Origin: a virus
Reading direction: 5' to 3' (one strand)
DNA: 21,217 nt
Virus record (IMG/VR): IMGVR_UViG_3300044960_000581
Location: 1 to 21,217 of that record
The translations under genes were made by a program, and so were the position numbers. A model generated the notes under the pieces. It was not told where the DNA came from. It did no database searches and saw only the letters and a list, made by a program, of their open reading frames with translations. Positions 1 to 15,424 of this stretch are shown here, piece by piece; position 1 is the stretch's first letter, and each line of letters opens with the position of its first letter.

Positions 1-2529
1 CACATTATAATTTGATCCAGTTACTGTTTGAACATTTAATGCAGAAGCAGTTGGAACAGCTGAAATAGTAATTGTGGTTGGAGCTGGAGTAATTGTAACA
101 CCTGGTCCTGCTACAAGTGATTTAAATTGTAAATCTGTTCCTACTTTGGAGCTAAATAATCCTGCTCCACCACCTATATTGGATGCAGTGTTGGCTTCTC
201 CTCCGCCTCCGCCACCACCACTACCTATAACTTTACTTGGGTCTATTCTAAAAATGAGTATATCGCCAACTTCTAACTGTTCTAAAATTTCAATATTTAC
301 CGATTCACTACCTGGTAATCCTACTTCATCCCAAGATGAGCCTAAAATTAATTTGATACCATTTAGGTATACTTCAAGTTCTCCATTACCAACAACATAT
401 GATCTAGCTGCATTTCCATTTCTAGAATCTAATGGAATTGTAATAGTAGTGTTTGGAGGTACAGGACCAAGGATTTGATTAGGCCCAGGAGAAGAAGCTA
501 CAACCTCAATTTTTTCTTCATAATCAATTTCTACGTTATTAACAATTCCAGCAATAATATTATCTAAGCGTTTAATTGCTAAAGTTAAGTTGTCACCGTC
601 AACTACTGTATGGTTTGCAGCGCCAGAACCTTGTTGTACAATCGTAATTGAAAGTCCTGATACGTTAACGTTTGATGCATCCGTTGCCATTCCTGCTGTA
701 GCATTAGTTACAGTAACAACGTTTGCACTTGCACTTGCGTTAAAATCAACAACAGCGTTAATAGCTGCAGCTGTTGCTGTAGCTACTTGTGCAGCAGAAT
801 CGCCAGAGTTAATGTTTACTTGAATTGGAATTTTTCCAATCGGACTTGGATTGCCGCCGCCTCCGTTTACGTTGTACCAAACATAATATTCAGGTAAATC
901 TTGGGCAGCATATAATAAAAAGTATTGGCCAGAAGTTATTGATGAGCCAGGGGGGCATGTAATGTCGGTGATTTCTGGAAGAAGTGGTCCTAATTTATTA
1001 GAATATACAGGAAAATTGTCAGAATCACCGGCAGATCCAACATAAGCAAAAAGTTGCTCTGACGTTGTATCGTTAATTTCTACAGTTTCACCTTGCTCAA
1101 GTTCTTGTCCTACAAATCTAGCGTAAACTCTTGGGGTTGAGCCTCCGTTATCTGAACGCAATAATAACCAATAAACATTTTCACCGCTTGGCACATTCTC
1201 TCTATTTGCAATACGAATATGCCTATTGGTTGAAGGAATTGGACTAGTTTGATATGTTCCCCAAGCGTATTTTGCTTTTGCGCCACTTGGTCCAGTAGAT
1301 GTGCCAGGAAATGGTTCAGTTAAGGTTACTTGACTTAAAGAATCTACTGTTAAAATTTTATAATATTTAGTATCATCTTCTGCCGCGAGCTTAATAAAGT
1401 CGCCAGGCTGAACGTTAGATGTCCAACTCACTGCTCCAACAGAAGTTACAACTGCTGAACCATTTACAAAAATTAGGTTAGGTACGATATCTTGTCCACG
1501 GACTATATTGATATATGCTACTTGGTTATCTGCAAGGACGATATCTGTAGAAGTGGGGTTAGCCAACAATGTATAAGATAGTCGGCTACCGATAACGCGC
1601 ATTACAATATCTTGAGACCAGTTAATACGTCCGGCCGTTACTGTATGGTGAGTAATACTTCCATGGCCTGTAAATACAGTATTTCCTAAGTCTGTCCTTA
1701 AATTAACCGCACTTCCGCCGACGTTTGGAGAATACCAAAATACAGTACCTTTAATTTCCAAGATGGATGTCATAACGGCATCCATCCATTCTTTTAAAGA
1801 GCCTAACTGCTTATCACCGCCTCTAAAAGGGTTGATGGCAGATGAAGAAGAGTTGGGTGGGTTTTCATGTCTGTTAGGAGTTTGATCTGTCCATGGATAT
1901 ACGTAAGAAGGATTTGGAGTAGCTCTTCCGCCGGTACCGAGGCGGTAAAGCATTGGCCTGTGATCAGTTACTTCTACAACGTTATTGGCAGCATCAGTTG
2001 TGATTTTAGCAATTGGTAATACATTTTGAGCCCAAACGCTTGTTGTAATAACAATTTTGTATCTAAGAATTGAGGCAAGAGGTACACTTTTAGAAGTCTC
2101 TGTTTTACTAGATGGATTCCAAAAATAAACTTGGTCTGTTGTTGAGTTATCGATTACTCTTTCGTATTCAATACCAATATAGTTAACAGCGTTTGGGGTA
2201 AACGCACCTTGAACGCGAGGATTGATAGTGGAGTTCAAAATTTCAGGAGGTTGGGTAGACGATACTACGTAAAAAGTACCTGATTCTCTTGACTGACCAT
2301 GTAAAATTGCGGAGTCTGCCACAAGCATTTGGGCGCCTGAAGCAGCAGATCCGATAAGGCCGGTCATGTTAATTTCAAATCCGCGTATTACATAGCTTTG
2401 TCCTTCGCCTGTAATTACGGATTTTAATAATTCGTCAAAATCATTGGATACAGCGGACTCAATGGATCGTAAATGCGGTACATCGACCCTTTGTTGGCTA
2501 AGCCATTGCTGCCTTCTACGAATTGCCAT
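1..2529 (-). CDS. Tail fibre / baseplate-attached fibre protein, 3'-truncated by the window edge
   Basis: The frame is open from an ATG at 2529 to base 1: 843 codons and no stop, so the C-terminus lies outside. GGGAG at 2538-2542 sits 8 nt before the ATG. The N-terminus (about 1-60, starting MAIRRRQQWLSQQRVD) probably docks the protein to the baseplate, as in large phage fibres (inference). The middle is beta-rich. Residues about 520-635 carry the GQYFL...YYVWYN module also found in the J-like and I-like proteins. Further on come a beta segment with EVYLNGIKLILGSSWDEVG (about 715-735), a run of glycines encoded near 190-225, and GEANTASNIGGGAGLF just after it; this last pair is common in tail fibres of large phages. 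It is transcribed away from the zinc-ribbon gene under a motif shared with other late units. Receptor binding would normally lie in the missing C-terminus, so specificity cannot be judged. Confidence 0.82.
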   Translation of the reverse strand, partial: MAIRRRQQWLSQQRVDVPHLRSIESAVSNDFDELLKSVITGEGQSYVIRGFEINMTGLIGSAASGAQMLVADSAILHGQSRESGTFYVVSSTQPPEILNSTINPRVQGAFTPNAVNYIGIEYERVIDNSTTDQVYFWNPSSKTETSKSVPLASILRYKIVITTSVWAQNVLPIAKITTDAANNVVEVTDHRPMLYRLGTGGRATPNPSYVYPWTDQTPNRHENPPNSSSSAINPFRGGDKQLGSLKEWMDAVMTSILEIKGTVFWYSPNVGGSAVNLRTDLGNTVFTGHGSITHHTVTAGRINWSQDIVMRVIGSRLSYTLLANPTSTDIVLADNQVAYINIVRGQDIVPNLIFVNGSAVVTSVGAVSWTSNVQPGDFIKLAAEDDTKYYKILTVDSLSQVTLTEPFPGTSTGPSGAKAKYAWGTYQTSPIPSTNRHIRIANRENVPSGENVYWLLLRSDNGGSTPRVYARFVGQELEQGETVEINDTTSEQLFAYVGSAGDSDNFPVYSNKLGPLLPEITDITCPPGSSITSGQYFLLYAAQDLPEYYVWYNVNGGGGNPSPIGKIPIQVNINSGDSAAQVATATAAAINAVVDFNASASANVVTVTNATAGMATDASNVNVSGLSITIVQQGSGAANHTVVDGDNLTLAIKRLDNIIAGIVNNVEIDYEEKIEVVASSPGPNQILGPVPPNTTITIPLDSRNGNAARSYVVGNGELEVYLNGIKLILGSSWDEVGLPGSESVNIEILEQLEVGDILIFRIDPSKVIGSGGGGGGGEANTASNIGGGAGLFSSKVGTDLQFKSLVAGPGVTITPAPTTITISAVPTASALNVQTVTGSNYNV
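625..975 (-). repeat. Shared tail-protein module alpha, copy 1 (in the fibre)
   Basis: This stretch encodes ITDIT, then GQYFLLYAAQ, EYYVWYNVNGG, IPIQVNINSGDSAAQVA, an Ala-rich helix and a closing ITIVQQG. The same order occurs at 6352-6690 and 3995-4345. By eye, copies 1 and 2 share more than half of their residues, and the helix-coding DNA is also visibly alike, with runs such as gctacttgtgc. The pattern looks like a compact beta domain with one helix. That fold is an inference. Confidence 0.8.
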
Positions 2530-3441: not shown

Positions 3442-5462
3442 TATGGACCCCAAATTATAGGTGTTTCAGAATCTTTAGTACCCCATTTTGACAATCCTTC
3501 ATCGCCTGGATAAAGTATTGTAATTACAAGCCTAATTCCTGTTGCGACAACCATTTTAATTAAATCTTCGGCATAAACTCGGCCTGCAACAACATCGGTT
3601 AAATAAAACGGAAGATCAGTCCCAGTTTTACTAATAATAACAGGGCCGTTTGAGGCAACCAAGGCAACATCGGTTCCTACTGGATGAGTATTCTTAATTC
3701 GATACGATGGGTTTAATAAAAGACTGTTTGAACTTGGTCTTGCTAGATATGGTATTGGCCCTTCTTGTCTTGACGTGCCATATCCTAAAATTATAAAGCC
3801 TTGTGAATCTGGGAAGTTATTAGCGTTTGCTACTTGAATAATCTTATTGGTTGTAGGACTAGCTTGTGCGGTAAGCGTAGAACCTTTATCTGAAATCGTA
3901 AATGGTTGGGAAGGATCGTATAAGTATGGGCCAAAGTTATCTGTAAATTGCTCATCAGGGTTTGGAACAGAAGTTGTAACTACAGATGCGTTAACTCCGG
4001 TTTGGTATACAGAAAAAGAAATACCTGGTACATTACCATTTGAATGTGGCGTTATAGCTCCGACATCGGCATTTGCAATTCTTGCTGTAGGTGTTGATGG
4101 ATTGGCTGCGGAAAAATGAATAGTTCCACTAACTTCTTTTGCTACTTCTTGTGCAACTTGTGTTGCAGTGGTAAGAGAGCTTATATTGATTCTAATCCCA
4201 GTCCTTCCTGGTATTGCTGGGTCAACAAGGTTTCCACCTGTTGTATCAAAATATACATAATACAATGTTGTAGGAGTATTTAAAAGAAAGTATTGTCCAT
4301 CTGATATTGCACCTGGGCTTGGGAATGTAATATCTGTAACTTGATTTTGACCGTCATTATATGTTGTAGTTGTTATAAAAGCTGAGCCATGGATGTGAGC
4401 CGCTCCTGCTTTATCTCGTCTTACAACTTTGGTTGTAGCGGGAATAAGTATTTCTAAAAGCCGTTGTTCAGCTTGATATACGGCGGCATATCTAGTTTTA
4501 TCCAAAATAGTCATTCGGTAAGGATTAAAAAACAAAACTCCATTATTGGTTCCCTGTACCGCTATTTCCGATACTCCGTTTGGATTTTCAATTTCAAAAT
4601 AAGCATTGTTTACACTTCCGCCACGAACATCTATAACTGTAAAAGTACCCCTATTTGCATTATTAAATCCTGGGCCGTAAATATTTACATAGTCGTTTTT
4701 TCTAACTTTACCAACCGATGGGTTGGCTCCACCACTCCACGTATATCGAATAATTCCGCCAGCTTGAGCAGAAACAGTCCATTGGGTTGAAGCAGTAGCA
4801 CTTGTAGGTCTTGCTTCTCTAAATAAAAGTACGTTTTGAGCCTTTCCACCTAGTACTTTAATTGAAGATGATGGACTTGGAGTATTAGACAATAATTCGA
4901 CAAATTTATTGGTTCCGTCATCTTTTACAACCGCAGAACCTATTTTACCTTGCTTTCTAATACTTCTGGTAATGGCATCGGCTACTTCTTGTGCCGTAGC
5001 TGTATTAATATTAGCAAATTGAGAAGATTCAAAAGTAATAGTTATAGGATCTGCGCCATCATATTGTATAATAAGTGTGTCGCCATCATCTAAGTTATAT
5101 GGTTCATAGGCGCCCGATATGGAAGTGGCACGAATTGCATCTTCACCAAACATTGTGCCTAAGATTTTTAAAATCAGGTCTCGTATTTGTTTTGTATTTA
5201 AAACGCTAATACCAATATCACGAAACACATCGTCTGAAAGACCTACTGTAGGTGGACGTATTAGGTTGGCATCGGCTAAACGCTGATCTAAGTATCTTCC
5301 CTCTGCAGTCGCAATATAAATTTGATCGTGAACTGCCTCTACGTTATCGATTAGCTTTTCAGTTCCAGAAGCAAGCGCCCATAACACTGCATCGGTATTA
5401 GGTCCATGAATAGCTGGATTTAAAAGCTTGCGAAGTCTTTTATATTCTTCTTCTCTAGCCAT
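3441..5462 (-). CDS. Baseplate wedge protein, tail-protein-I-like (gpI/gp7-type), with inserted beta modules
   Basis: The protein has 673 residues. Residues 1-115 are helical and look like the N-terminal part of tail protein I and related wedge proteins: a helix pair (LLNPAIHGPNTDAVLWALAS), then AEGRYLDQRLADANLIRPP and a following DDVFRDIGISVL segment. The rest is a string of beta modules: delta at about 126-210 (GDTLIIQYDG, PITITF), beta at about 236-312 (YTWSGGANP, NRGTFTVIDV), alpha at about 372-490 (ISDGQYFLL, YYVYFD) and gamma at about 553-605 (ILGYGTSRQEGPIPY). All four have relatives in the upstream J-like protein. The ATG overlaps the J stop as TAATG, so the two are translated together. 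P2 gpI is under 200 residues, so this copy is strongly enlarged. It most likely joins J in the wedge. Confidence 0.72.
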   Translation of the reverse strand: MAREEEYKRLRKLLNPAIHGPNTDAVLWALASGTEKLIDNVEAVHDQIYIATAEGRYLDQRLADANLIRPPTVGLSDDVFRDIGISVLNTKQIRDLILKILGTMFGEDAIRATSISGAYEPYNLDDGDTLIIQYDGADPITITFESSQFANINTATAQEVADAITRSIRKQGKIGSAVVKDDGTNKFVELLSNTPSPSSSIKVLGGKAQNVLLFREARPTSATASTQWTVSAQAGGIIRYTWSGGANPSVGKVRKNDYVNIYGPGFNNANRGTFTVIDVRGGSVNNAYFEIENPNGVSEIAVQGTNNGVLFFNPYRMTILDKTRYAAVYQAEQRLLEILIPATTKVVRRDKAGAAHIHGSAFITTTTYNDGQNQVTDITFPSPGAISDGQYFLLNTPTTLYYVYFDTTGGNLVDPAIPGRTGIRINISSLTTATQVAQEVAKEVSGTIHFSAANPSTPTARIANADVGAITPHSNGNVPGISFSVYQTGVNASVVTTSVPNPDEQFTDNFGPYLYDPSQPFTISDKGSTLTAQASPTTNKIIQVANANNFPDSQGFIILGYGTSRQEGPIPYLARPSSNSLLLNPSYRIKNTHPVGTDVALVASNGPVIISKTGTDLPFYLTDVVAGRVYAEDLIKMVVATGIRLVITILYPGDEGLSKWGTKDSETPIIWGP
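3995..4345 (-). repeat. Shared tail-protein module alpha, copy 3 (in the I-like protein)
   Basis: The stretch encodes VTDITFPSPGAISDGQYFLL, YYVYFDTTGG, PGRTGIRINISSLTTATQVA and a closing SFSVYQTG. It is the most diverged of the three copies, but the landmarks are in the same order and spacing as at 625-975 and 6352-6690. Confidence 0.75.
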
Positions 5463-8400
5463 TAGCCAATCTCACTTACAGCAATATCAGAGATGCTATC
5501 AATAATACGAGTTTTTTCACCAACATTTACTCTAATAATATCGTTTTGAGCATCGTATTGAGGCGAACTAATTGCAACAGCTCGTACACCTGGGATAGAG
5601 TTTACAGTGGCAACAATATCAGAAATTGCGATAGATTGACCAATTTCGTTACTATCAATAAGTGCTGCTACGTTATTTCTTACTTGCTCAACAATTTGAG
5701 TAAAAGGAATACCCGTTTCAATTCTTACATCAATAGATACCTGAATTCGCTTAGTTAAAGGCTCTTTAATAAAAATTTCAGCACCTGCAGCTGCAACACC
5801 TCGGTAAGTTGCGGCATCTCTTGGATCTCCATAAATAATTCTATTAGCTTCACCAATCAATCCTGTATGATACTTATAACTATCAATACCGCGTATTAAT
5901 TTAGTACTAAAAGATAGTTTATTCATTGTAGAAATTTGTACGCCAGCATCTTCATTGATCTTATTAGCGCCTTCTCTTCCGTAGAAAACTACATTACCTC
6001 TTAAATCATTTGATCCATCTGTAGAGATAAATTTAATCTTCTTATAAGCAGTGTATGGTTTTTGTTCTTGAACTAAAATAGATCCTTCATTTGGAGATAA
6101 AGGTCTTTCTTCTACCGATGCCATAGTTCCTGAAACTACAATAGTTTCTTGATCTAAAACCGATACAATTGGGAAAGTACCTTGCGAAGCATTTCCTAAA
6201 AAGTCACTAGAAACTATAAAAGAATCTCCAGCAACCGTTGCATCATATTCGCTAAATAGCATTGCTGGTCTATGGCATTCTAAAATATTAGAAATAGTGA
6301 TATTAGATTCAGATACAGCTTTAGGGTTGATCGCTTCTAAGAATGACCATTGACCTTTTTGAAGGATGGTAATAAAGAACGGTCCTGCAACGTTTACGTT
6401 TACAGCAGTTGTAGTTGGACCAAAACCTACGTTTTCTACTGTTACATGACTTCCCGAAGCAGTAGCAGTGAAATTGACGTTACCGTTTATGACGGCAGCA
6501 GTTGCTGCGGCTACTTGTGCTGCTGAGTCGGTTGAGTTAATATTAACTTGTAATGGGGTTTTTCCAGGCGGAGCTGGGTCGTTTAGAAGTCCGTCAATAT
6601 TATACCATACGTAATATTCAGTAGCATCTAGAGCTGAATTGATTAAAAAATATTGACCAGAAGTCATCTGGTTGCCGGCAGAACAAAGGATTTTATATTT
6701 TTCTTTTTTCTTTGGTTGGGCTTTAATAACCATAAACACGCCTTGGTTATTAGGAGCAAAATCTGTTCCAAAGGTAATCTCATCGCCCATTTTTGCATTT
6801 CCAAGGAATGGTTCAGTTCCGTTTCCGTTCCAAGATAGTTTGATAGTAGCATTTGATGCATCAACATTAAATTGAGTAGTAGCATCAAAACCTAAAGAAA
6901 TAAGGTTATCAGATAAAGTGACATATTCTTCTACAGAATTTGGCGCATCAATATAAATTGAGTTGTTAAATTCTTTAATAACTCGATAAGTTCCACGGTT
7001 TAATATATTAAATGGCGCTTTAATTTCTACAGTATCACCTTCTGTGACTTTAGTGGTACATACAAAATCACCAGCAGCAAAACTTCTACCTACCAATGTA
7101 GGGCTAGATACTGTTGCTCCAGGTGCACCTACGTTATTAACATAAGAAACAGCAATAGACGCGTTTGGAGTGGTTGCGGTAACAATAACAGTGTTTGCAG
7201 AAGCTTTTGCGGTAACTCCTGGTAAAGCACTAATAGCTGATGCTAAGTTAATAGCCGTAGCGGCTGCGTTTACACCTACCGTAAAATCAACGCCAGCTTG
7301 AAGTATGTTGCCATCTACTATAAAATCGTCGCCAGCAATATCACCATTATTAGTGATCGTAAATGTTGCTTGAGAGTATTCTGCAACCGCATTTGGATTT
7401 AGCACTCGTACAGTTTTTCCATCTAAGGAAACGCCTGTGACTAAGAATGTGCCATTGTTTTCACTTTCATCCATATTAGAGACTGTAATTAAATCTCCAA
7501 TGGACACTTCTGAAAACCTTGTATTTCCAGTTAAAATCCTGTATTCAGCATCACTTGTGCCGCTAACAGGATGTACGTTTAGAGTACCGCCTAATGAATC
7601 GTTTAATTCTACCGTTTTAGTAAAAGCGGGCGATGCGCCGACTCCATTCCAAGAAATACAAGTAAATTTACCTTGTTTTTCTACCTTGAAAGTTCGTCCT
7701 CTAGTTCTGACATGATGTCTTGGTTTTCCAAAGAATCGGTCTGTAGCTGTTCTGTTGGATAAAGAAATAGTAGATTGACCAACGCCTGGAGTTGCTGGGT
7801 CAATTCTTATTTTAGTTCCACTTTTGAAAAAGGTTTCTTTTGCTTGTTTGTTAGACGCTGTAAGTTTCACCCATTGATCAGAATGAAGTCCAGCAAGGCC
7901 AGATACATTAACTGATGTTTTAACAAGTGAATTATTTATGACAGAAGAATTGTCCAAAACAGGTGTTTCAGATCCATTAGCTAAGCCGCCAACAATTTGG
8001 ACAGCTCCTTGTCCACCCAAAGTTTTTGTGGCAATTTCTAACTTACCTTTTCTATTTACAATCTGCAAATTAGCATTAGTAGTAATGCCACTTACTGCCA
8101 ATTTTTTAGATAAACGTTCAACATGATCTAACGTAGTTGGTACAAGTACGACTTCTTCGCCTTGGTTAAAGGCATATCCTGGAGCAGAAGGTAGCGATAA
8201 GGGTTGTTTAAACGTAAATTGAGGTGAACCACCAAGGTTCGATGAAGCAATCCAATTGATACCGTCTAATAAAGCGATGCTTGTTGCTGAAAAGTTGAGC
8301 TCTTCTTCAGTTGAAAGAGGAATATTTCCAGAACCAGTTAATCCGGAATCATTAACAAGACTTGCTGTTACAAAATTTTGTAAATTTGCATTAACATAAG

Positions 8401-11400
8401 TTACAATTTCTTGGGCAGTTGTTGTTGCGCTATTATAGAAAGTAATTGCATTAGAAACTAAGGTTGCAACGTTTGTTTGCGCAACAGCTTGTCCGTGCGC
8501 TTTTTGAACGCTAAAACTTGTAGCGGTAGGAGTAAATCCTGGCTCGGTGCTAACTCGATACACGCCAGTATTAGCTTTGTCAAATTCGCTTTCTTGTGTA
8601 ATATTTACATACTCTCCACCTGAAAGAACGGATAGGTTTGGTGCAGTACCCGTTCCATTCCAAGTAAAGGTGACTTGATCAACGCCTGCAACAGGAGTGT
8701 TTGGAGTGATTGTAACATTCCATTCTGTTGTTCCGTCTATTGTAGTAGGAATTGCAACACCGCTTTTTAACGATATAGAAATATTAACTGTGTCATTAAC
8801 CTGTACAGAATGACCAATATTTTGGTTTGGAGAGCTTGGATATATGTATGAAATCCTAATGTTTTCGCCAGACCTTCCATATCGAACTGCTCTATATAAG
8901 ATAGCGTTTTGGTTTCCAGCTGGGTTAATAACATTTTTAGCTCTCATTAATGCTTTAAAATCTGAGAAATCAAATGAAGTGCCAAAATAAGTAGTAAACG
9001 GATTAGTTGGGCCGCCATCAATATCGTAAGCATTAAATGATGTTGGGTTTACAGCCAATGTCGTGTTTGTTTTTGCTACACGATACATTGGGATAGAAAA
9101 GGTTTTATTTGTAGGATCATTATCGATAATGGTTACAAGTTCATCTTCATGTCCAAAATCTAGAGGACTTACTGCATAATAACGATCATCTGGTCTTAAA
9201 CGTTTAATAAACGGATCTTGTTCCAAATTAAGTGTGGTTCCGCTATAAGATTTGACTAAAGTTTTTTCATTTGGAGATAAAGTATCTAATATATTTCCAA
9301 ACGGTTGAACATATCCAATTAAAAAGTTGGGGTCTAATGTAGGCGCAATTGCTGAAACTACTGAAGATAGATATGAATTTGGTGGAAGTGCTGCTGAGCC
9401 AGAAGATAGTTTAGAATGGAAAAATAAAGGAAACTCGCCTTCCGTAAATCCTGTTTCATAGTAAGCAATTAAAGATTCATTACTTGTATCCGACTGTCCA
9501 GCAGTAAACGACAGTTGTTTTCCGTTTTCATCAAACGTTACGATCATAACGTGTCCGTTTGATGATTTGGTTAATGTTTTAACTACTAAAAATTCATCAT
9601 TACTTGATGAAAACTCAACACCTTTAGCTTGGTCATTTAATTCTTCTGCAATATCACTTAATGTCTTTGTACCAGCTAGAACACGAAGTTTTTGAGGAAC
9701 CTCTTTAGTTCTAACTACAACAAAACCTTGATTAAAAATGATACCGCTTTCAACAACCGCTGCTGCATACTCTGCGGGTGTTACTTTAATATCTAAAGTA
9801 GCTCCAGATACAGCATGAACGCGTCCTTCCAATCTGTTTGGAGCGCTAAGTTCTTCACTCCATACAATTACATAATCACCGACTTGAACATTAGAAAATG
9901 CGGATGGGTCGTTGGATATATACCTAACAATGTTAGTAAAAGGTTTTGATACTGCAATTAAAGTATCTGATACTACACCAGTATTGATAATTTTAGCATT
10001 TTTGTCGTCAGATAAAACCCAAATATGAGCATTTCCAGTCAAAGTAATAACACCGCCCAAAATAGCATCAGATTCGATTCTTCCTTCTGTGTCGTCTGTT
10101 CCTGCCGTTAACTGATCGCTTGGTTCTAATGGTACATTTAGTTTAATCTGACCGGTGTTTCTAGAAAATTTATAATCGGCCTGTTTTCCTTGTGAAAACA
10201 ATCCTTTATTAACCGAAAACATTCCTTTAGATACCAAAGTAGAGCTTGGGTCAATAGACAAAGATGCTCTATTGGATGCGCCTAAGTTAGATACTAAATT
10301 GATCTGTTCACCCACAACAGATGCGGTTACTCCAGTAATTTTCTTGTTAAATACATTTACCCAAGATTCCAAACTGTTTGTAGAAGAAACGGATGGATAT
10401 GTTCCTTCAGCAATAAAATCGGCATCAGTGAATGTATAAGTAATGGGTGCGGTACCATCTACTGACAAAATTAACGTATCTCCACTTGCAATAGATGGTG
10501 ACCAAGCAACCTGCTCTTCGGTTTCAAGTCTTGCTTCATTTCCATCTTTAGATAGTGGTTTTTTGTTTTTAAATAAACGTAATGTTTGACTTTGGTTTGC
10601 AGGAAGACCTAAAATATCGGCAACATTTCTTCCTGTTGTAGGCTCTTTTGCTTGAATATCTTCATTAGATTCAGCTTTAGCAAATAAAACTACTTTGGTT
10701 CCACCAGCCGAGGTATTGGCTTGCCAATTTAAAGCACTGTTTCCGTTAATAGAAGCTACAACCTCATAGGCTGTTGCGCCACCTGGACTAACAAAATCAG
10801 AGTTTTGGAAAACATGCTGAGTTGTAATTCCACCAACAGAAATTGCTAAGGCATCGCCCCCAACAATATCAAAAGGTGCAGAAAGTTCTGAGAGTAAAAA
10901 TGCTTTTGCTACACTAGATTGTCTTCCGCCCGTTTCAAGCTGAAAATAAGTTTCTCCGCCTAATGCGCTATCTGCTAAGTACTCAATTCCTACGCCAGCT
11001 ACTTTTTGTTCGTATCCAGTTCCATCGTCAATATAAAGAACGGTTTCATCTACAGTATTTAAAATTTGAGCGCTAGTGATTGTAGCAGCTTCATCAGAAG
11101 GCATTGCTCCGATAACTGAATTTTGAATAGCTAAAGCGGTGCCCAATCCACGAGAAAGACGTGCTCGCTTGATTCTGATTCTAAGCTCTTCATCAGTTTC
11201 GGTATCGCGTCCAGTTTTAAATGGTCTAGTATTTTTAACTTTAGCGCCTGGAAATGGAGGAGAGGCGAATTCTTTAATTGCTCCAATTGGTACGTTTCCA
11301 ATAGACCCTGGTTGTTGAGCCGACACTTTAACGCCAGCTACTTCTGTTTCGCCATCTAAAATCAAAGCCGGTTGGGTTACAGAGAATGATACAGCAGGAG

Positions 11401-11998
11401 ATGCTCCAGAAGCTGGGGCTCGGACAATAGTTCCTACAGGGATATTTCTTATGCCGCCCTGAGATAAAATAACACTTTCATTAATGTTATGAAATTTGGT
11501 GGTAGGAGAAGATAGAGTAAGTTGCCAAAAACCGCCAATAAGATTAACTGAAGAATAAGGAATTGGACCTTCTACATTGGGAGTGCCGCGGCCAATGTAA
11601 ACACTTCCCGTAGGGGGAAATTCAGAACCGTCTGAAATCTTAATAACAGTAGAACCAATGTTAGGTGGTTTATCACCTGCATAAATTTTTGTGGCGATTT
11701 TTTTGAATGAAGTATCCGTTATAACTACTTCGCCAGAAGATACTCGTGCTGGGAGTTCGGTTAGCCCCTCATCCCTAGCAATACGACGCAAAGACTCGCC
11801 TTCAGCTCGGTCAACCGATTGATCTCGTAAAATTTGAAAAATGTCACCACTAGCTCGGGCTAAAGCAAGCGCTACAGTTTCAAATAAGCTAGTAGTAACC
11901 GAGCCTGTATTAATGTCATCAATTCCGGTTTTGGCCAGAAATGTTGACAACATATCGCCAAGGTATTGTTCATATGATCTAGGTTTTGGAGTTGCCAA
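5462..11998 (-). CDS. Giant baseplate J-like wedge protein (gp6/gp47 type) with about 1,600 residues of inserted modules
   Basis: The product has 2,178 residues, against roughly 300 in P2 gpJ and about 660 in T4 gp6. The N-terminus (1-300) is baseplate-J-like: a helical start with RAEGESLRRIARDEGLTE, beta strands, then GRDTETDEELRIRIKRARL at about 262-280. The C-terminal 190 residues are also J-like: ATYRGVAAAGAEIFIKEPL, then IQVSIDVRIETG and SIPGVRAVAISSPQ. Between them lie repeated beta modules: gamma at about 122-180, delta twice (about 381-480 and 504-585), beta about five times (near 1090-1180, 1440-1545, 1643-1698, 1706-1763 and 1912-1962) and alpha at about 1772-1882. The start is a TTG at 11998 with GAGGG 7 nt upstream; the frame has a stop 9 codons earlier and no ATG between. 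The protein should link wedges around the hub, with the insert probably exposed on the outside (inference). Confidence 0.85.
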   Translation of the reverse strand: MATPKPRSYEQYLGDMLSTFLAKTGIDDINTGSVTTSLFETVALALARASGDIFQILRDQSVDRAEGESLRRIARDEGLTELPARVSSGEVVITDTSFKKIATKIYAGDKPPNIGSTVIKISDGSEFPPTGSVYIGRGTPNVEGPIPYSSVNLIGGFWQLTLSSPTTKFHNINESVILSQGGIRNIPVGTIVRAPASGASPAVSFSVTQPALILDGETEVAGVKVSAQQPGSIGNVPIGAIKEFASPPFPGAKVKNTRPFKTGRDTETDEELRIRIKRARLSRGLGTALAIQNSVIGAMPSDEAATITSAQILNTVDETVLYIDDGTGYEQKVAGVGIEYLADSALGGETYFQLETGGRQSSVAKAFLLSELSAPFDIVGGDALAISVGGITTQHVFQNSDFVSPGGATAYEVVASINGNSALNWQANTSAGGTKVVLFAKAESNEDIQAKEPTTGRNVADILGLPANQSQTLRLFKNKKPLSKDGNEARLETEEQVAWSPSIASGDTLILSVDGTAPITYTFTDADFIAEGTYPSVSSTNSLESWVNVFNKKITGVTASVVGEQINLVSNLGASNRASLSIDPSSTLVSKGMFSVNKGLFSQGKQADYKFSRNTGQIKLNVPLEPSDQLTAGTDDTEGRIESDAILGGVITLTGNAHIWVLSDDKNAKIINTGVVSDTLIAVSKPFTNIVRYISNDPSAFSNVQVGDYVIVWSEELSAPNRLEGRVHAVSGATLDIKVTPAEYAAAVVESGIIFNQGFVVVRTKEVPQKLRVLAGTKTLSDIAEELNDQAKGVEFSSSNDEFLVVKTLTKSSNGHVMIVTFDENGKQLSFTAGQSDTSNESLIAYYETGFTEGEFPLFFHSKLSSGSAALPPNSYLSSVVSAIAPTLDPNFLIGYVQPFGNILDTLSPNEKTLVKSYSGTTLNLEQDPFIKRLRPDDRYYAVSPLDFGHEDELVTIIDNDPTNKTFSIPMYRVAKTNTTLAVNPTSFNAYDIDGGPTNPFTTYFGTSFDFSDFKALMRAKNVINPAGNQNAILYRAVRYGRSGENIRISYIYPSSPNQNIGHSVQVNDTVNISISLKSGVAIPTTIDGTTEWNVTITPNTPVAGVDQVTFTWNGTGTAPNLSVLSGGEYVNITQESEFDKANTGVYRVSTEPGFTPTATSFSVQKAHGQAVAQTNVATLVSNAITFYNSATTTAQEIVTYVNANLQNFVTASLVNDSGLTGSGNIPLSTEEELNFSATSIALLDGINWIASSNLGGSPQFTFKQPLSLPSAPGYAFNQGEEVVLVPTTLDHVERLSKKLAVSGITTNANLQIVNRKGKLEIATKTLGGQGAVQIVGGLANGSETPVLDNSSVINNSLVKTSVNVSGLAGLHSDQWVKLTASNKQAKETFFKSGTKIRIDPATPGVGQSTISLSNRTATDRFFGKPRHHVRTRGRTFKVEKQGKFTCISWNGVGASPAFTKTVELNDSLGGTLNVHPVSGTSDAEYRILTGNTRFSEVSIGDLITVSNMDESENNGTFLVTGVSLDGKTVRVLNPNAVAEYSQATFTITNNGDIAGDDFIVDGNILQAGVDFTVGVNAAATAINLASAISALPGVTAKASANTVIVTATTPNASIAVSYVNNVGAPGATVSSPTLVGRSFAAGDFVCTTKVTEGDTVEIKAPFNILNRGTYRVIKEFNNSIYIDAPNSVEEYVTLSDNLISLGFDATTQFNVDASNATIKLSWNGNGTEPFLGNAKMGDEITFGTDFAPNNQGVFMVIKAQPKKKEKYKILCSAGNQMTSGQYFLINSALDATEYYVWYNIDGLLNDPAPPGKTPLQVNINSTDSAAQVAAATAAVINGNVNFTATASGSHVTVENVGFGPTTTAVNVNVAGPFFITILQKGQWSFLEAINPKAVSESNITISNILECHRPAMLFSEYDATVAGDSFIVSSDFLGNASQGTFPIVSVLDQETIVVSGTMASVEERPLSPNEGSILVQEQKPYTAYKKIKFISTDGSNDLRGNVVFYGREGANKINEDAGVQISTMNKLSFSTKLIRGIDSYKYHTGLIGEANRIIYGDPRDAATYRGVAAAGAEIFIKEPLTKRIQVSIDVRIETGIPFTQIVEQVRNNVAALIDSNEIGQSIAISDIVATVNSIPGVRAVAISSPQYDAQNDIIRVNVGEKTRIIDSISDIAVSEIG
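6352..6690 (-). repeat. Shared tail-protein module alpha, copy 2 (in the J-like protein)
   Basis: The stretch encodes MTSGQYFLINSAL, EYYVWYNIDG, DPAPPGKTPLQVNINS, DSAAQVAAATAAVING and FFITILQKG. It is the closest relative of the fibre copy at 625-975. Confidence 0.8.
6710..8672 (-). repeat. Beta-module array inside the J-like protein (WNGxGxxP type)
   Basis: Three units carry the W-N-G-x-G-x-x-P landmark: FTWNGTGTAP near residue 1113, ISWNGVGASP near 1448 and LSWNGNGTEP near 1724. Each is followed by a GD or GE strand (GEYVNI, GDLITV, GDEITF) and then an N-x-G-x-(F/Y) strand (NTGVYRV, NNGTFLV, NQGVFMV). Two more units without the WNG part (NRGTYRV near 1660, SQGTFPI near 1935) belong to the same pattern. 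The I-like protein has one copy (YTWSGGANP...NRGTFTV) near 4525-4755. Confidence 0.65.
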
Positions 11999-12085: not shown

Positions 12086-14671
12086 TCAAATTTGGAAGCT
12101 TAACGGTAAGATACCGTTTCCATTGGCAATTCTTACGCTTACTTCTATAGTTAAGGTAGGGCCTTTTAAGGTTACCCTTAAGCGTTCAATATCTGAAAAT
12201 CTAGGGTCAGCAACGATTGTCTCCCTAACTTTATTATAAATATCAGTTGCAGTAAATTCTGCCGTACTTGTACCTGGACCAACGCCTGAGCCGTATTCTG
12301 GGTGCTTAATTAAAGACCTAATTGGGGTAGCAAATTTAAGTTTTAGGGCTTGTATAAGGTTGGTCATTCCACCCGCAAGCTTAATATCCTTGTAATTATC
12401 AAAAGCTATGTCACCTGAATCGGTCAACAATAAATCAACCTTTGACAATCCAACTAATGGGTCGGCTTTAAAAAGTGGAATTGGCCTAGCTCTGATATCG
12501 TTTGGAGCTTCTAAGTCGCTTGGTATAAATATTTGGTTAGACGAATTAACCGTACCTGGTAGATAGGCTTTAATTCTAGCTTGAGCTGAAGTGGTGTATA
12601 CATCTAAATTATCTAGGCCATCTACGGTAATTAGATGGTTAGTTTCATTGATGGTTTCTATATTTAGAATTCGCCTCATCGTTCTTGGTTGGTTATTTGA
12701 ATAAATTGTAATTATTTGATTTACATAAAGATTTTCTCTTGAGGCCACGGTAAATTGTCTTCCTTCAGCATTTGATAATAGATACCTTTCAAAGCCAGTT
12801 TCGTCAATATATGGACTTTTTAAAGCATTAAGTGTAGCTATTTCAATCCATCGATCTGGGTTTCCTAAATACCGCATTGCTATTTCTTCGATAGATAGAC
12901 CAAATGGTACTGGGACTATAAATTTAGAGGATGCGTTTTCGTAAGTAATTCCAGATTCAGCGGCAAGGGCTGCGACATATTCCGTGGCAGATTGAATTCT
13001 GCCATCATCTAGCTCCTGAGTTGCGGTTAAAATTTGTAAAGATTCGATCACTTCGTAAAGTTTATTTAAAATATCATATTCATCAATCGTCATCTCAGTT
13101 AGACGCTGAAAAGGTGCTGGCTTATCATAAATAGCGCTATATGTTTCATCCCCAGCACCATATAAGTTAGCGATTTGACTAGCTAATTCCGATATTTGAT
13201 TGGTTGCCTGAATAATATCATCTACCGTCAGGTTTTGAGCATCACCAATAATAGCGTCGATTTCATCTTGTTGATCTGGTGTTAGGGTAAGACTGCTTAA
13301 AGGAATAGAGTTAAAAAGTTCGTAATACTCTTCTGGATTTTCAAATATTTCGTTAGATGGGTCAGTAAGATCGGATAAAGCGGCGGCACCGCCTAACATG
13401 CTTAAAGTGGTAGCGGAAGCCGCCAATCCCTCTTTTAGGGATAGGCTTGCTTGTATTTTTTTAACTGCATCGGCCATTTTTTTGTTTTTAAATGAAATAG
13501 ACTGTAAGTTTCCAATAGCTTCTTTTATTCCGTTTTTATAATCATTAATAATTTGTCTAGGTAAATCAGCAACGGCCACAGGAATACCTGCAAGGTCTTT
13601 GACAAAAAGAGCGGTTTGTCGTAAAATATTGAGAGGAGTTTGAAAATCTCCTCTAACAGCAGTAATAAGGTTTAAAGCGCTAGCTGCAGTTCGCCTTGCT
13701 TCGTCGATACCATTTATAATCCTTTGTAAAAGATTTGGAGTAATTGCACTAAGCGATGGCGATGGGGAAGCGCTTACACTATTAATTTTAATCCTACGCC
13801 ATGCCTTAAATTGTATAGAATATCTAATTTCAGAAGGTTTTTCTACACTTTGCTGCCAAACAAATTGTTGCGGTGTGACGACAAATGCTTGATTTTGTTT
13901 AGGAATATCAAAAACCAATCGCCATCCAGCATTTTTTGGATCTTTTTTTGCTTCAGCGTATTGTTCCAGAAATTGGTCTAAACGCATTGCATAGGCATAG
14001 CCTGTACTTGACAAGCCTGTTGTACTTTTTTCTGGTTTTAATGCTGCCGGATGTTTACCAGATATTGTGTTAATAAATCTATTAAATTGACCTGCCAAAT
14101 TATTTGCAGCTTGTATTGTTCCAGAAAACAAAGTTTCAAGAATGCTTGGACTTCCTGGCGGAGAAGCCTTATTAGGTTTGTATGGCCAAACACCAAACGT
14201 GCCAGAGGCAGAAATAATCTTAAATTTTACACCGTTATGCTCTTCTACTATGCCTTTTAGTGTTGCTGAAACTTGGTTTGCAAACTGGGTTTGGATAGAA
14301 AGTTGCTGTGGAGTTATAGGAAGTATAAATTCCCATGTATTATCAAAGGGTTTAAAAGTAATTTGAAATTTATCTGGGGTTTGTGAAACTTTAATATCGG
14401 GTTCAGTTTTGCCAGCATTTTTGTTTGAAACAATGGCATTTCCTTTGTGAACGTCTACAACAACAAGCCTATAAGGATACAGTTTATCCCATCTAGAATT
14501 GTCAATCTCTATCGGTTCAAAAAAGGTATTTGTTTGTTTTTCCCAAGGTTTAGGTTGTCTGCTGGAAGATGTGGCGCCTTTATTGGTACCTGTTAATTCA
14601 GGAGCAGCGTCTTTGGATAAATTTTTAGTGGCGTCTGCAATGTTTATGTTTGGTGACCCTGGTTTGCTCAT
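12086..14671 (-). CDS. Baseplate wedge fusion: XkdP-like N-terminus, LysM, and gp25-like C-terminus
   Basis: The protein has 861 residues. After a Ser/Pro/Lys-rich start (1-60), residues about 100-290 hold two beta-rich segments (ITPQQLSIQTQ...ISASGTFGVWPY and GWRLVFDIP...RYSIQFKAWRRI), reminiscent of XkdP-type LysM tail proteins. Residues about 300-530 are helical. At about 575-630 the pattern VPFGLSIEEIAMRYLGNPDR followed by WIEIATLN is a LysM-like repeat of the type found in baseplate proteins, not a secreted wall binder. The last 120 residues form a gp25/GPW-type wedge domain: VDLLLTDSGDIAFD, LIKHPEYGSGVG and RVTLKGPTLTIEVSV. In many phages these are separate genes; here they are fused. 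The neighbouring J-like and hub genes agree with a wedge role. The ATG at 14671 has only a weak, distant GAGG. Confidence 0.83.
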   Translation of the reverse strand: MSKPGSPNINIADATKNLSKDAAPELTGTNKGATSSSRQPKPWEKQTNTFFEPIEIDNSRWDKLYPYRLVVVDVHKGNAIVSNKNAGKTEPDIKVSQTPDKFQITFKPFDNTWEFILPITPQQLSIQTQFANQVSATLKGIVEEHNGVKFKIISASGTFGVWPYKPNKASPPGSPSILETLFSGTIQAANNLAGQFNRFINTISGKHPAALKPEKSTTGLSSTGYAYAMRLDQFLEQYAEAKKDPKNAGWRLVFDIPKQNQAFVVTPQQFVWQQSVEKPSEIRYSIQFKAWRRIKINSVSASPSPSLSAITPNLLQRIINGIDEARRTAASALNLITAVRGDFQTPLNILRQTALFVKDLAGIPVAVADLPRQIINDYKNGIKEAIGNLQSISFKNKKMADAVKKIQASLSLKEGLAASATTLSMLGGAAALSDLTDPSNEIFENPEEYYELFNSIPLSSLTLTPDQQDEIDAIIGDAQNLTVDDIIQATNQISELASQIANLYGAGDETYSAIYDKPAPFQRLTEMTIDEYDILNKLYEVIESLQILTATQELDDGRIQSATEYVAALAAESGITYENASSKFIVPVPFGLSIEEIAMRYLGNPDRWIEIATLNALKSPYIDETGFERYLLSNAEGRQFTVASRENLYVNQIITIYSNNQPRTMRRILNIETINETNHLITVDGLDNLDVYTTSAQARIKAYLPGTVNSSNQIFIPSDLEAPNDIRARPIPLFKADPLVGLSKVDLLLTDSGDIAFDNYKDIKLAGGMTNLIQALKLKFATPIRSLIKHPEYGSGVGPGTSTAEFTATDIYNKVRETIVADPRFSDIERLRVTLKGPTLTIEVSVRIANGNGILPLSFQI
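12102..12118. other. Perfect 7-bp inverted repeat at the 3' end of the wedge fusion gene
   Basis: AACGGTA, AGA, TACCGTT form a perfect stem with a 3-nt loop, inside the last ten codons of the minus-strand gene. In the direction of transcription it is followed by AAGCTTCC, not by a T-run, so it is not a standard intrinsic terminator. It may still pause RNA polymerase or protect a 3' end. Confidence 0.4.
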
Positions 14672-14718: not shown

Positions 14719-14883
14719 ATGAACAATAGCTCGTTTTTATTGACTTTTTTGGTATCTGCATGTATCGGTTTTTCTGTATTTTTAGGGTATCGAGTTGGCT
14801 ATTTCATGGGTAGTTTGCCGAAAAAGCCGTTAAAACGAAAAAGGCCTATTTTTAGAATATTAAAAGGCGGAAAAAATGAATAA
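14719..14883 (+). CDS. 54-residue single-span membrane peptide
   Basis: ATG at 14719 to TAA at 14881-14883 encodes 54 residues. About residues 6-30 are strongly hydrophobic (FLLTFLVSACIGFSVFLGY), followed by a short turn and a very basic tail with KKPLKRKR. By the positive-inside rule the tail should face the cytoplasm. The gene overlaps the next one by 8 nt, and its last codons supply the GGCGGA ribosome site for the metalloprotease, so the two are probably co-translated. No clear SD lies before its own ATG. Small size and topology would suit a holin-like, antiholin-like or envelope accessory peptide, but no family is recognised. Confidence 0.6.
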   Translation: MNNSSFLLTFLVSACIGFSVFLGYRVGYFMGSLPKKPLKRKRPIFRILKGGKNE

Positions 14884-15424
14884 ATGGAAAAAACGATTTT
14901 TAATAGTTCTATTTTGCTTTTTAACAGCAGGTTTTGTGTCTTGTGCTACAAATGGTTGGATGCACAAGAAAATTTACAAGTACAGCTTAAAACCGTATGT
15001 TAAGGAATTTAGCGAAAGAAGCGGCATTCCAATGTCTAATTTAGAAACTATTGATTATTCTATAGTTTTGTTTCTTCCTGCCAATACTGCCGCACAATGT
15101 GTTATTCCTAAAATAAAAAGTGCAAGAAAAGCTATACAAGTTCGTTGGGATATATTTTTATTTTCAAGCGAATTGCAAAAGAAGGCTATAATATTTCATG
15201 AAATACTGCATTGTTATTGTGGTAGAAAACATATAATATTAAAAGGAAGCTACTGGGAAATGTTCGGGTGGACGTATAAAAAAACAAATAATAAAGGCGA
15301 TTGTCCATTGAGTATCATGTACCCATCTCTATTATCTTCAGAATGTTTAAAGCAAAACTGGGAAGAGTATATGGAAGAAGCGTTTTCTTTTTGCCCAAAA
15401 GATTTGTCTATTTTCTTTCGGTGA
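14876..15424 (+). CDS. Lipoprotein zinc metalloprotease, metzincin-like
   Basis: The product has 182 residues. It starts with a lysine-rich n-region (MNKWKKR), a hydrophobic core at 8-22 and FVSC with Cys23 as a probable lipidation site, so it should be exported and membrane-anchored. The zinc site is HEILHCYCGRKH at 108-119: H108 and H112 as ligands, E109 as catalytic base, H119 as third ligand, with a Gly at 116. SIMYP at 146-150 is placed where metzincins have the Met-turn. The third His is one residue further along than in the classical HExxHxxGxxH. Several cysteines (75, 113, 115, 143, 157, 173) could form disulfides. It runs against the flanking tail genes and follows the 54-aa membrane peptide. 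The substrate is unknown; host envelope proteins, wall-linked peptides or phage proteins are all possible. Confidence 0.75.
   Translation: MNKWKKRFLIVLFCFLTAGFVSCATNGWMHKKIYKYSLKPYVKEFSERSGIPMSNLETIDYSIVLFLPANTAAQCVIPKIKSARKAIQVRWDIFLFSSELQKKAIIFHEILHCYCGRKHIILKGSYWEMFGWTYKKTNNKGDCPLSIMYPSLLSSECLKQNWEEYMEEAFSFCPKDLSIFFR

Follow-up and report, generated by a model that had tools for sequence, protein, structure and literature searches.

The open reading frame at 5462-11998 of the window, which is the whole 21,217-nucleotide stretch of viral DNA analyzed here, encodes one intact J-like baseplate wedge protein (P2 gpJ/T4 gp6) of 2178 aa, with a large modular insert at a single site in the chain, immediately ahead of the C-terminal domain. 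Wedge proteins are usually regarded as the compact, conserved core of contractile machines. The identity of the protein, the position of the insert and its build from modules are well supported. These modules are gained and lost as whole units and are often nested in one another, and together they may form an arm on the outer or distal side of the baseplate.

The gene lies on the minus strand, begins with a TTG codon preceded by AGAGG and contains no internal stops. Residues 181-279 matched the Pfam family Baseplate_J (PF04865) with 41.6 bits against a cut-off of 21.1, and the C-terminal end gave a weak match to the same family, under the cut-off, at window positions 5609-5803 (~residues 2066-2130). 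The protein also matched PHROG 6, 'baseplate wedge subunit' (E 8e-24). Comparison of the family profile with solved J proteins of 348-378 aa aligned an N-terminal block, the J core and a C-terminal block, which in phi812 J correspond to residues 2-49, 129-206 and 248-324. Both conserved regions, the N-terminal part with the J core and the C-terminal domain, were found, in the order of the wedge family. The distance from J core to C-terminal block is ~40 residues in phi812 J (206 to 248) as compared to ~1,690-1,780 residues here. A sequence-only reading had proposed a J-like wedge protein with plain ends, enlarged about fourfold by its middle. The block alignment and its spacing agree with that description of both ends and of the large insert, as do the structural matches at both ends, and the protein is 3.3 times the length of T4 gp6 (~660 aa) and ~6 times that of phi812 J.

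As in the J/gp47/gp6 wedge family, the gene is flanked by a gp25-like gene upstream and a second wedge-like gene downstream. The ATG of the second wedge-like gene overlaps the J stop codon, and PHROG 1160 'baseplate protein' matched its product in 4 of 16 relatives. On the strand opposite the tail genes, a 182-aa ORF (14876-15424, +) begins with a signal-like stretch and contains a lipobox-like Cys as well as an HEILH (HExxH) motif; L003, L008 and L012 have small lipoprotein-like ORFs resembling it in the corresponding position. In L003 and L004, a transposase/TnpB-like ORF (L003:15328-15903) separates the second wedge gene from the fibre gene.

Table. Features of the wedge gene and its neighbours, given as positions in the window.
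Feature	Position	Strand	Basis or remark
J-like baseplate wedge protein, 2178 aa	5462..11998	-	Baseplate_J, PHROG 6, homologues
J N-terminal part, residues 1-300: helical bundle region, S domain, J core	11099..11998	-	PF04865; solved-J alignment; compact homologue fold
S domain, residues 112-182, between N-terminal helices and J core	11453..11665	-	profile comparison
Module C1, residues 362-462	10613..10915	-	profile comparison; flagellin/FliD D2-D3-like fold in compact homologue
Module C2, residues 486-600	10199..10543	-	profile comparison
Module B1, residues 698-765	9704..9907	-	profile comparison
Module C3, residues 770-862	9413..9691	-	profile comparison
Module B2, residues 1080-1175	8474..8761	-	takes 66-152 aa insertions in several relatives
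Module E, residues 1280-1345, C-related	7964..8161	-	found in every homologue
Module B3, residues 1494-1545	7364..7519	-	L043/L044 equivalent contains ice-binding-like domain
Module D, residues 1550-1630, sheath-domain-like fold	7109..7351	-	structural match 8kee_C
Module B4, residues 1645-1697	6908..7066	-	profile comparison
Module B5 first part, residues 1718-1762, interrupted by module A	6713..6847	-	profile comparison, alignment
Module A, residues 1764-1888, nested in B5	6335..6709	-	profile comparison; absent whole in L009, L011, L030
Module B6, residues 1912-1972	6083..6265	-	profile comparison
J C-terminal part, residues 1995-2178; C-terminal domain 2079-2178	5465..6016	-	solved-J alignment, structural matches
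Second wedge-like protein (gpI/gp7 position), 673 aa	3441..5462	-	J-like N-terminus + C, B, A, S modules
Module A copy in second wedge-like protein, residues 372-495	3978..4349	-	E 2e-22
Module A copy in fibre-like protein, residues 517-638	616..981	-	E 2e-45
gp25-like/LysM baseplate protein, 861 aa, upstream of J	12086..14671	-	PHROG 975 'baseplate protein' E 2e-24

Fifty-six complete homologues with open frames of 1181-2561 aa were found on separate records (viral contigs), including that of the cultured Myxococcus phage Mx1 (1925 aa). An independent contig (L006) is 97.3% identical to the window over 8979 bp, and members of the closest clade measure 2178-2192 aa save where a module was lost or gained. 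An assembly or sequencing join, or a frameshift, was rejected on these grounds. The sequence-only reading had named a join of separate genes as the outcome that would overturn it, and we now regard such an origin of the insert as scarcely conceivable. Nothing was found in its support; the sole homologue with its gene in two frames is L063 (1350-5048 and 5095-6630, 1232 and 511 aa), which may be an error or a real split. The lineage includes several contigs of 150-177 kb, and the Mx1 genome is 169.6 kb. A scan of the genome collection with the C-terminal part located a single contig, of 129 kb (L079), in a Saprospiraceae MAG, with a 2191-aa member; this is probably a phage contig, maybe misbinned or a hint of the host.

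Modules were sought by comparing 100-residue windows of the family profile to the rest of the protein at a probability of at least 50, with the reversed target as a control. Inside J, 99 matches were obtained at this level and none when the target was reversed. By sequence, module B recurs six times and module C three times, modules A and D are each present once, and module E is related to C by way of the downstream protein. It had been proposed that the middle holds at least four kinds of module in several copies. Two kinds, B and C, are as proposed; because A and D occur once in J, four multi-copy kinds are reached only when the neighbouring genes are counted.

The sharing with those genes is extensive. 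The J profile gave 65 matches to the second wedge-like protein (reversed control, 0), which opens with a part resembling the J N-terminus (J 30-109), continues with C, B and then A, and ends with an S-related copy. Module A is also present in the fibre. In a tree of module A copies, those from J, from the second wedge protein and from the fibre mostly form groups of their own, and the genomes do not. The transfers are therefore old, and a recent spread of module A from gene to gene within one genome was rejected. A tblastn search of named phage genomes with module A gave no match, and a scan of the genome collection with module A copy A1 found nothing.

When 48 homologues were mapped on the 2178-aa protein, the gains and losses were of whole modules. 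L009, L011 and L030 are without exactly the module A unit and have an uninterrupted B5, as seen by alignment for the first two and by mapping for L030. Module D is absent whole from six relatives. Modules D and A are missing from Mx1 along with part of the 1440-1920 block, Mx1-like members likewise lack D, A and more, and some homologues have tandem A copies at ~1175. A single clade with support of 1.0 unites the compact homologues (1181-1458 aa), in which S, C and E are kept and B, D and A are mostly missing. The wedge proteins of L043 (7962-15647) and L044 (7977-15137) contain an ice-binding-like domain (Pfam Ice_binding, PF11999) inside B3 (E 1e-22 and 5e-36, respectively). This domain, the B2 insertions and the placement of A within B5 indicate that B modules repeatedly host further insertions. 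In Mx1, the interval of the second wedge-like protein (L013:25778-28726) that holds module A here is occupied by a kelch propeller; this protein is annotated only as 'kelch repeat protein'.

Structures were modelled for a compact homologue, L061, as a whole (mean pLDDT 82.7, pTM 0.62) and for residues 1001-2178 of the 2178-aa protein (mean pLDDT 84.7, pTM 0.55), with residues 1-1000 represented via L061 only. Both models are strings of separate beta domains, and their relative placement is unreliable at pTM 0.55-0.62. L061 matched J-like wedges at both ends. Over the whole chain, it matched cyanophage A-1(L) gp31 (8kea) best, with Z 15.3 and, across its several domains, an rmsd of 23.3 for 333 aligned residues, followed by phiCD508 (Z 14.9), phi812 (Z 13.7) and T4 gp6 (Z 9.7, 357 aligned). 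The C-terminal domain alone matched 9euf_I (Z 11.5), 5ces_A (Z 10.2) and T4 gp6 (5iv5_B, Z 10.2), and its PDB matches include pyocin PA0618 202-292 and T4 gp6 410-657. For the C-terminal half, the best structural matches were the BFVD entries A0A6J5KUV1 and A0A6J5L250, both named J-like.

Within the insert the likenesses are of fold only. The C-type domains of the L061 model resemble flagellin/FliD D2-D3 (9n8g_A, Z 10.7, rmsd 2.5, 96 residues; FliD 5fhy, Z 8.9, rmsd 2.7, 96 residues), and module D resembles a sheath domain of A-1(L) (8kee_C, Z 12.1, rmsd 1.7, 87 residues). Searches with the models did not show the insert to be a single known gp6 domain, an outcome against which the sequence-only reading had also staked its claim; the matches were to small separate domains. 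EF-Tu-like matches over the range 338-1028 of the model of residues 1001-2178 may reflect a barrel built from both sides of a long insertion.

Between close relatives, dN/dS was 0.03-0.24 in all computable parts of the protein and was highest in 1366-1980. Compared to 23 relatives, the insert has a median identity of ~53% and the J ends 61-63%; for the gp25-like, gp8-like, spike and hub proteins the median identity to the same 23 relatives is 42-46%. This pattern is that of a structural element and not of a diversifying or hypervariable adhesin. Strong purifying selection acts on the insert, which also has a higher identity than the spike, hub and gp25-like proteins; both observations speak against an adhesive layer that evolves fast.

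The protein is the J/gp6-type wedge of an Mx1-like myovirus lineage, and its conserved ends build a wedge of the ordinary kind. The ~1,700 residues that separate the J core from the C-terminal domain would leave the wedge as an arm composed of autonomous beta-rich modules. Such an arm would have grown by duplication and by insertion into the loops of earlier modules, with units gained or lost whole. Solved wedges consist of two J proteins and one second wedge protein, six times, and the protein is therefore probably present in 12 copies per baseplate, giving 12 arms per virion with a predicted mass of ~2 MDa in all. The arms would surround the spike and offer a surface on which the downstream wedge protein and the fibres, some of which have the same modules, could dock. 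We infer the copy number of the arm, its location on the virion and its function in this way. That the arm forms a skirt or cage on the outer or distal side of the baseplate and also docks fibres is a proposal on which we are evenly divided; it is favoured by the cage domain of Alg11 and by the cage and fibre-contacting extension of Cis11.

Two other roles were weighed against a skirt or cage. The insert could be mainly adhesive, with 12 multi-domain arms touching sugars on the host surface weakly, ahead of commitment by the fibres. Carbohydrate-binding-like modules occur in the Alg11 cage (PMC8894135), and the ice-binding-like domain inside B3, the kelch propeller in the module A interval of Mx1 and the flagellin/FliD-like fold of the C modules are all consistent with adhesion. 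However, the low dN/dS and the higher identity of the insert relative to the spike, hub, gp8-like and gp25-like proteins argue against this role, and no known sugar-binding family was found in the 2178-aa protein by Pfam search. We consider a mainly adhesive insert unlikely.

Less likely again is that the insert serves as a mechanical brace, replacing peripheral proteins of the T4 gp8/gp9/gp10/gp11 type and cross-linking wedges and fibres without host contact. The strong conservation of the insert fits such a brace, as does the sharing of modules among J, second wedge protein and fibre, and Pfam and PHROG searches gave no confident gp9, gp10 or gp11 matches within the window. The window is, however, a 21-kb fragment, so that peripheral proteins may be encoded elsewhere, and relatives have lost whole modules, a loss that a load-bearing lattice would resist. 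The skirt or cage with fibre docking is the preferred reading. A more far-reaching and doubtful form of it is that the twelve ~1,700-residue J arms, with their module-sharing neighbours, would enclose the spike and baseplate in a shell of ~2 MDa grown by nested exchangeable modules.

A family that spans 1181-2561 aa with inserted, lost and nested modules suggests that the wedge can be a platform for large phage surface structures, which parallels the role of Alg11 and Cis11 in injection systems. The cultured member Mx1 makes this enlargement directly open to experiment. The Mx1 'baseplate protein J-like protein' belongs to the same family by sequence and has a smaller module set.

Among phages, the closest solved wedges are small. 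In A-1(L), each wedge contains two J proteins and one second wedge protein, six times over, and the insertion of its wedge protein gp31 occupies a cleft of the hub or anchors the long fibre (PMC10966104). The insertion domain of A-1(L) gp31 (81-180; PMC10966104) is near the S domain described here, itself a small insertion ahead of the J core, but gp31 totals 390 aa and is without the large second insert. The J proteins of phi812 (ORF62, 9euf) and phiCD508 (gp65, 9g8s) are likewise short; the former matches by sequence in the N-terminal, J-core and C-terminal blocks and the latter in the J core only. T4 gp6 (5iv5) has the wedge fold at both ends as here, with no B, C or A modules seen. Outward growth is known from large phage sheath proteins, in which a conserved core is split and beta domains are added outward in big phages (PMC9230969). 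Sheath proteins of the Mx1-like lineage are also large, at 603-942 aa (L082, L083, L084, L085); comparison of the J modules with them gave no sequence relation at a probability of at least 30.

The nearest parallels in architecture are injection systems. In Alg11 of AlgoCIS, the extra domain IV (278-643) of a J-like wedge protein leaves from the distal tip of domain III and forms a hexagonal cage round the spike (PMC8894135). Cis11, from an Anabaena contractile injection system, has three extra domains, one of which is the cage and one of which touches the fibre (PMC8894136). Alg11 (7aeb) and Cis11 (7b5h) are, like the present protein, J-like wedges enlarged by extra domains; their chains (7aeb_G, 7b5h_AH) gave long, low-scoring matches behind smaller J proteins (Foldseek, VIA) and were not singled out for the insert. 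Across 198 genomes from a single bacterial phylum, many frames with Baseplate_J are 1,000-1,300 aa long, and we read these as injection-system proteins. In the literature searched, a scope with most subscription journals outside it, no description of an enlarged J-like phage wedge was found. Enlarged J-like wedges of up to ~1,000-1,300 aa are thus known already, as are giant J-like database entries, which are uncharacterised. The novelty lies in how large the present protein is, in its construction from repeated and nested modules and in the occurrence of those modules in adjacent tail genes. The solved Alg11 and Cis11 chains have 1,011-1,227 residues and belong to injection systems, whereas the present protein comes from a phage, has ~1,700 extra residues and contains repeated B and C modules that also occur in neighbouring genes. 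The likeness seen between the inserts is one of architecture, and it is no more than a tentative suggestion that a shell of such arms would be the phage counterpart of the injection-system spike cage.
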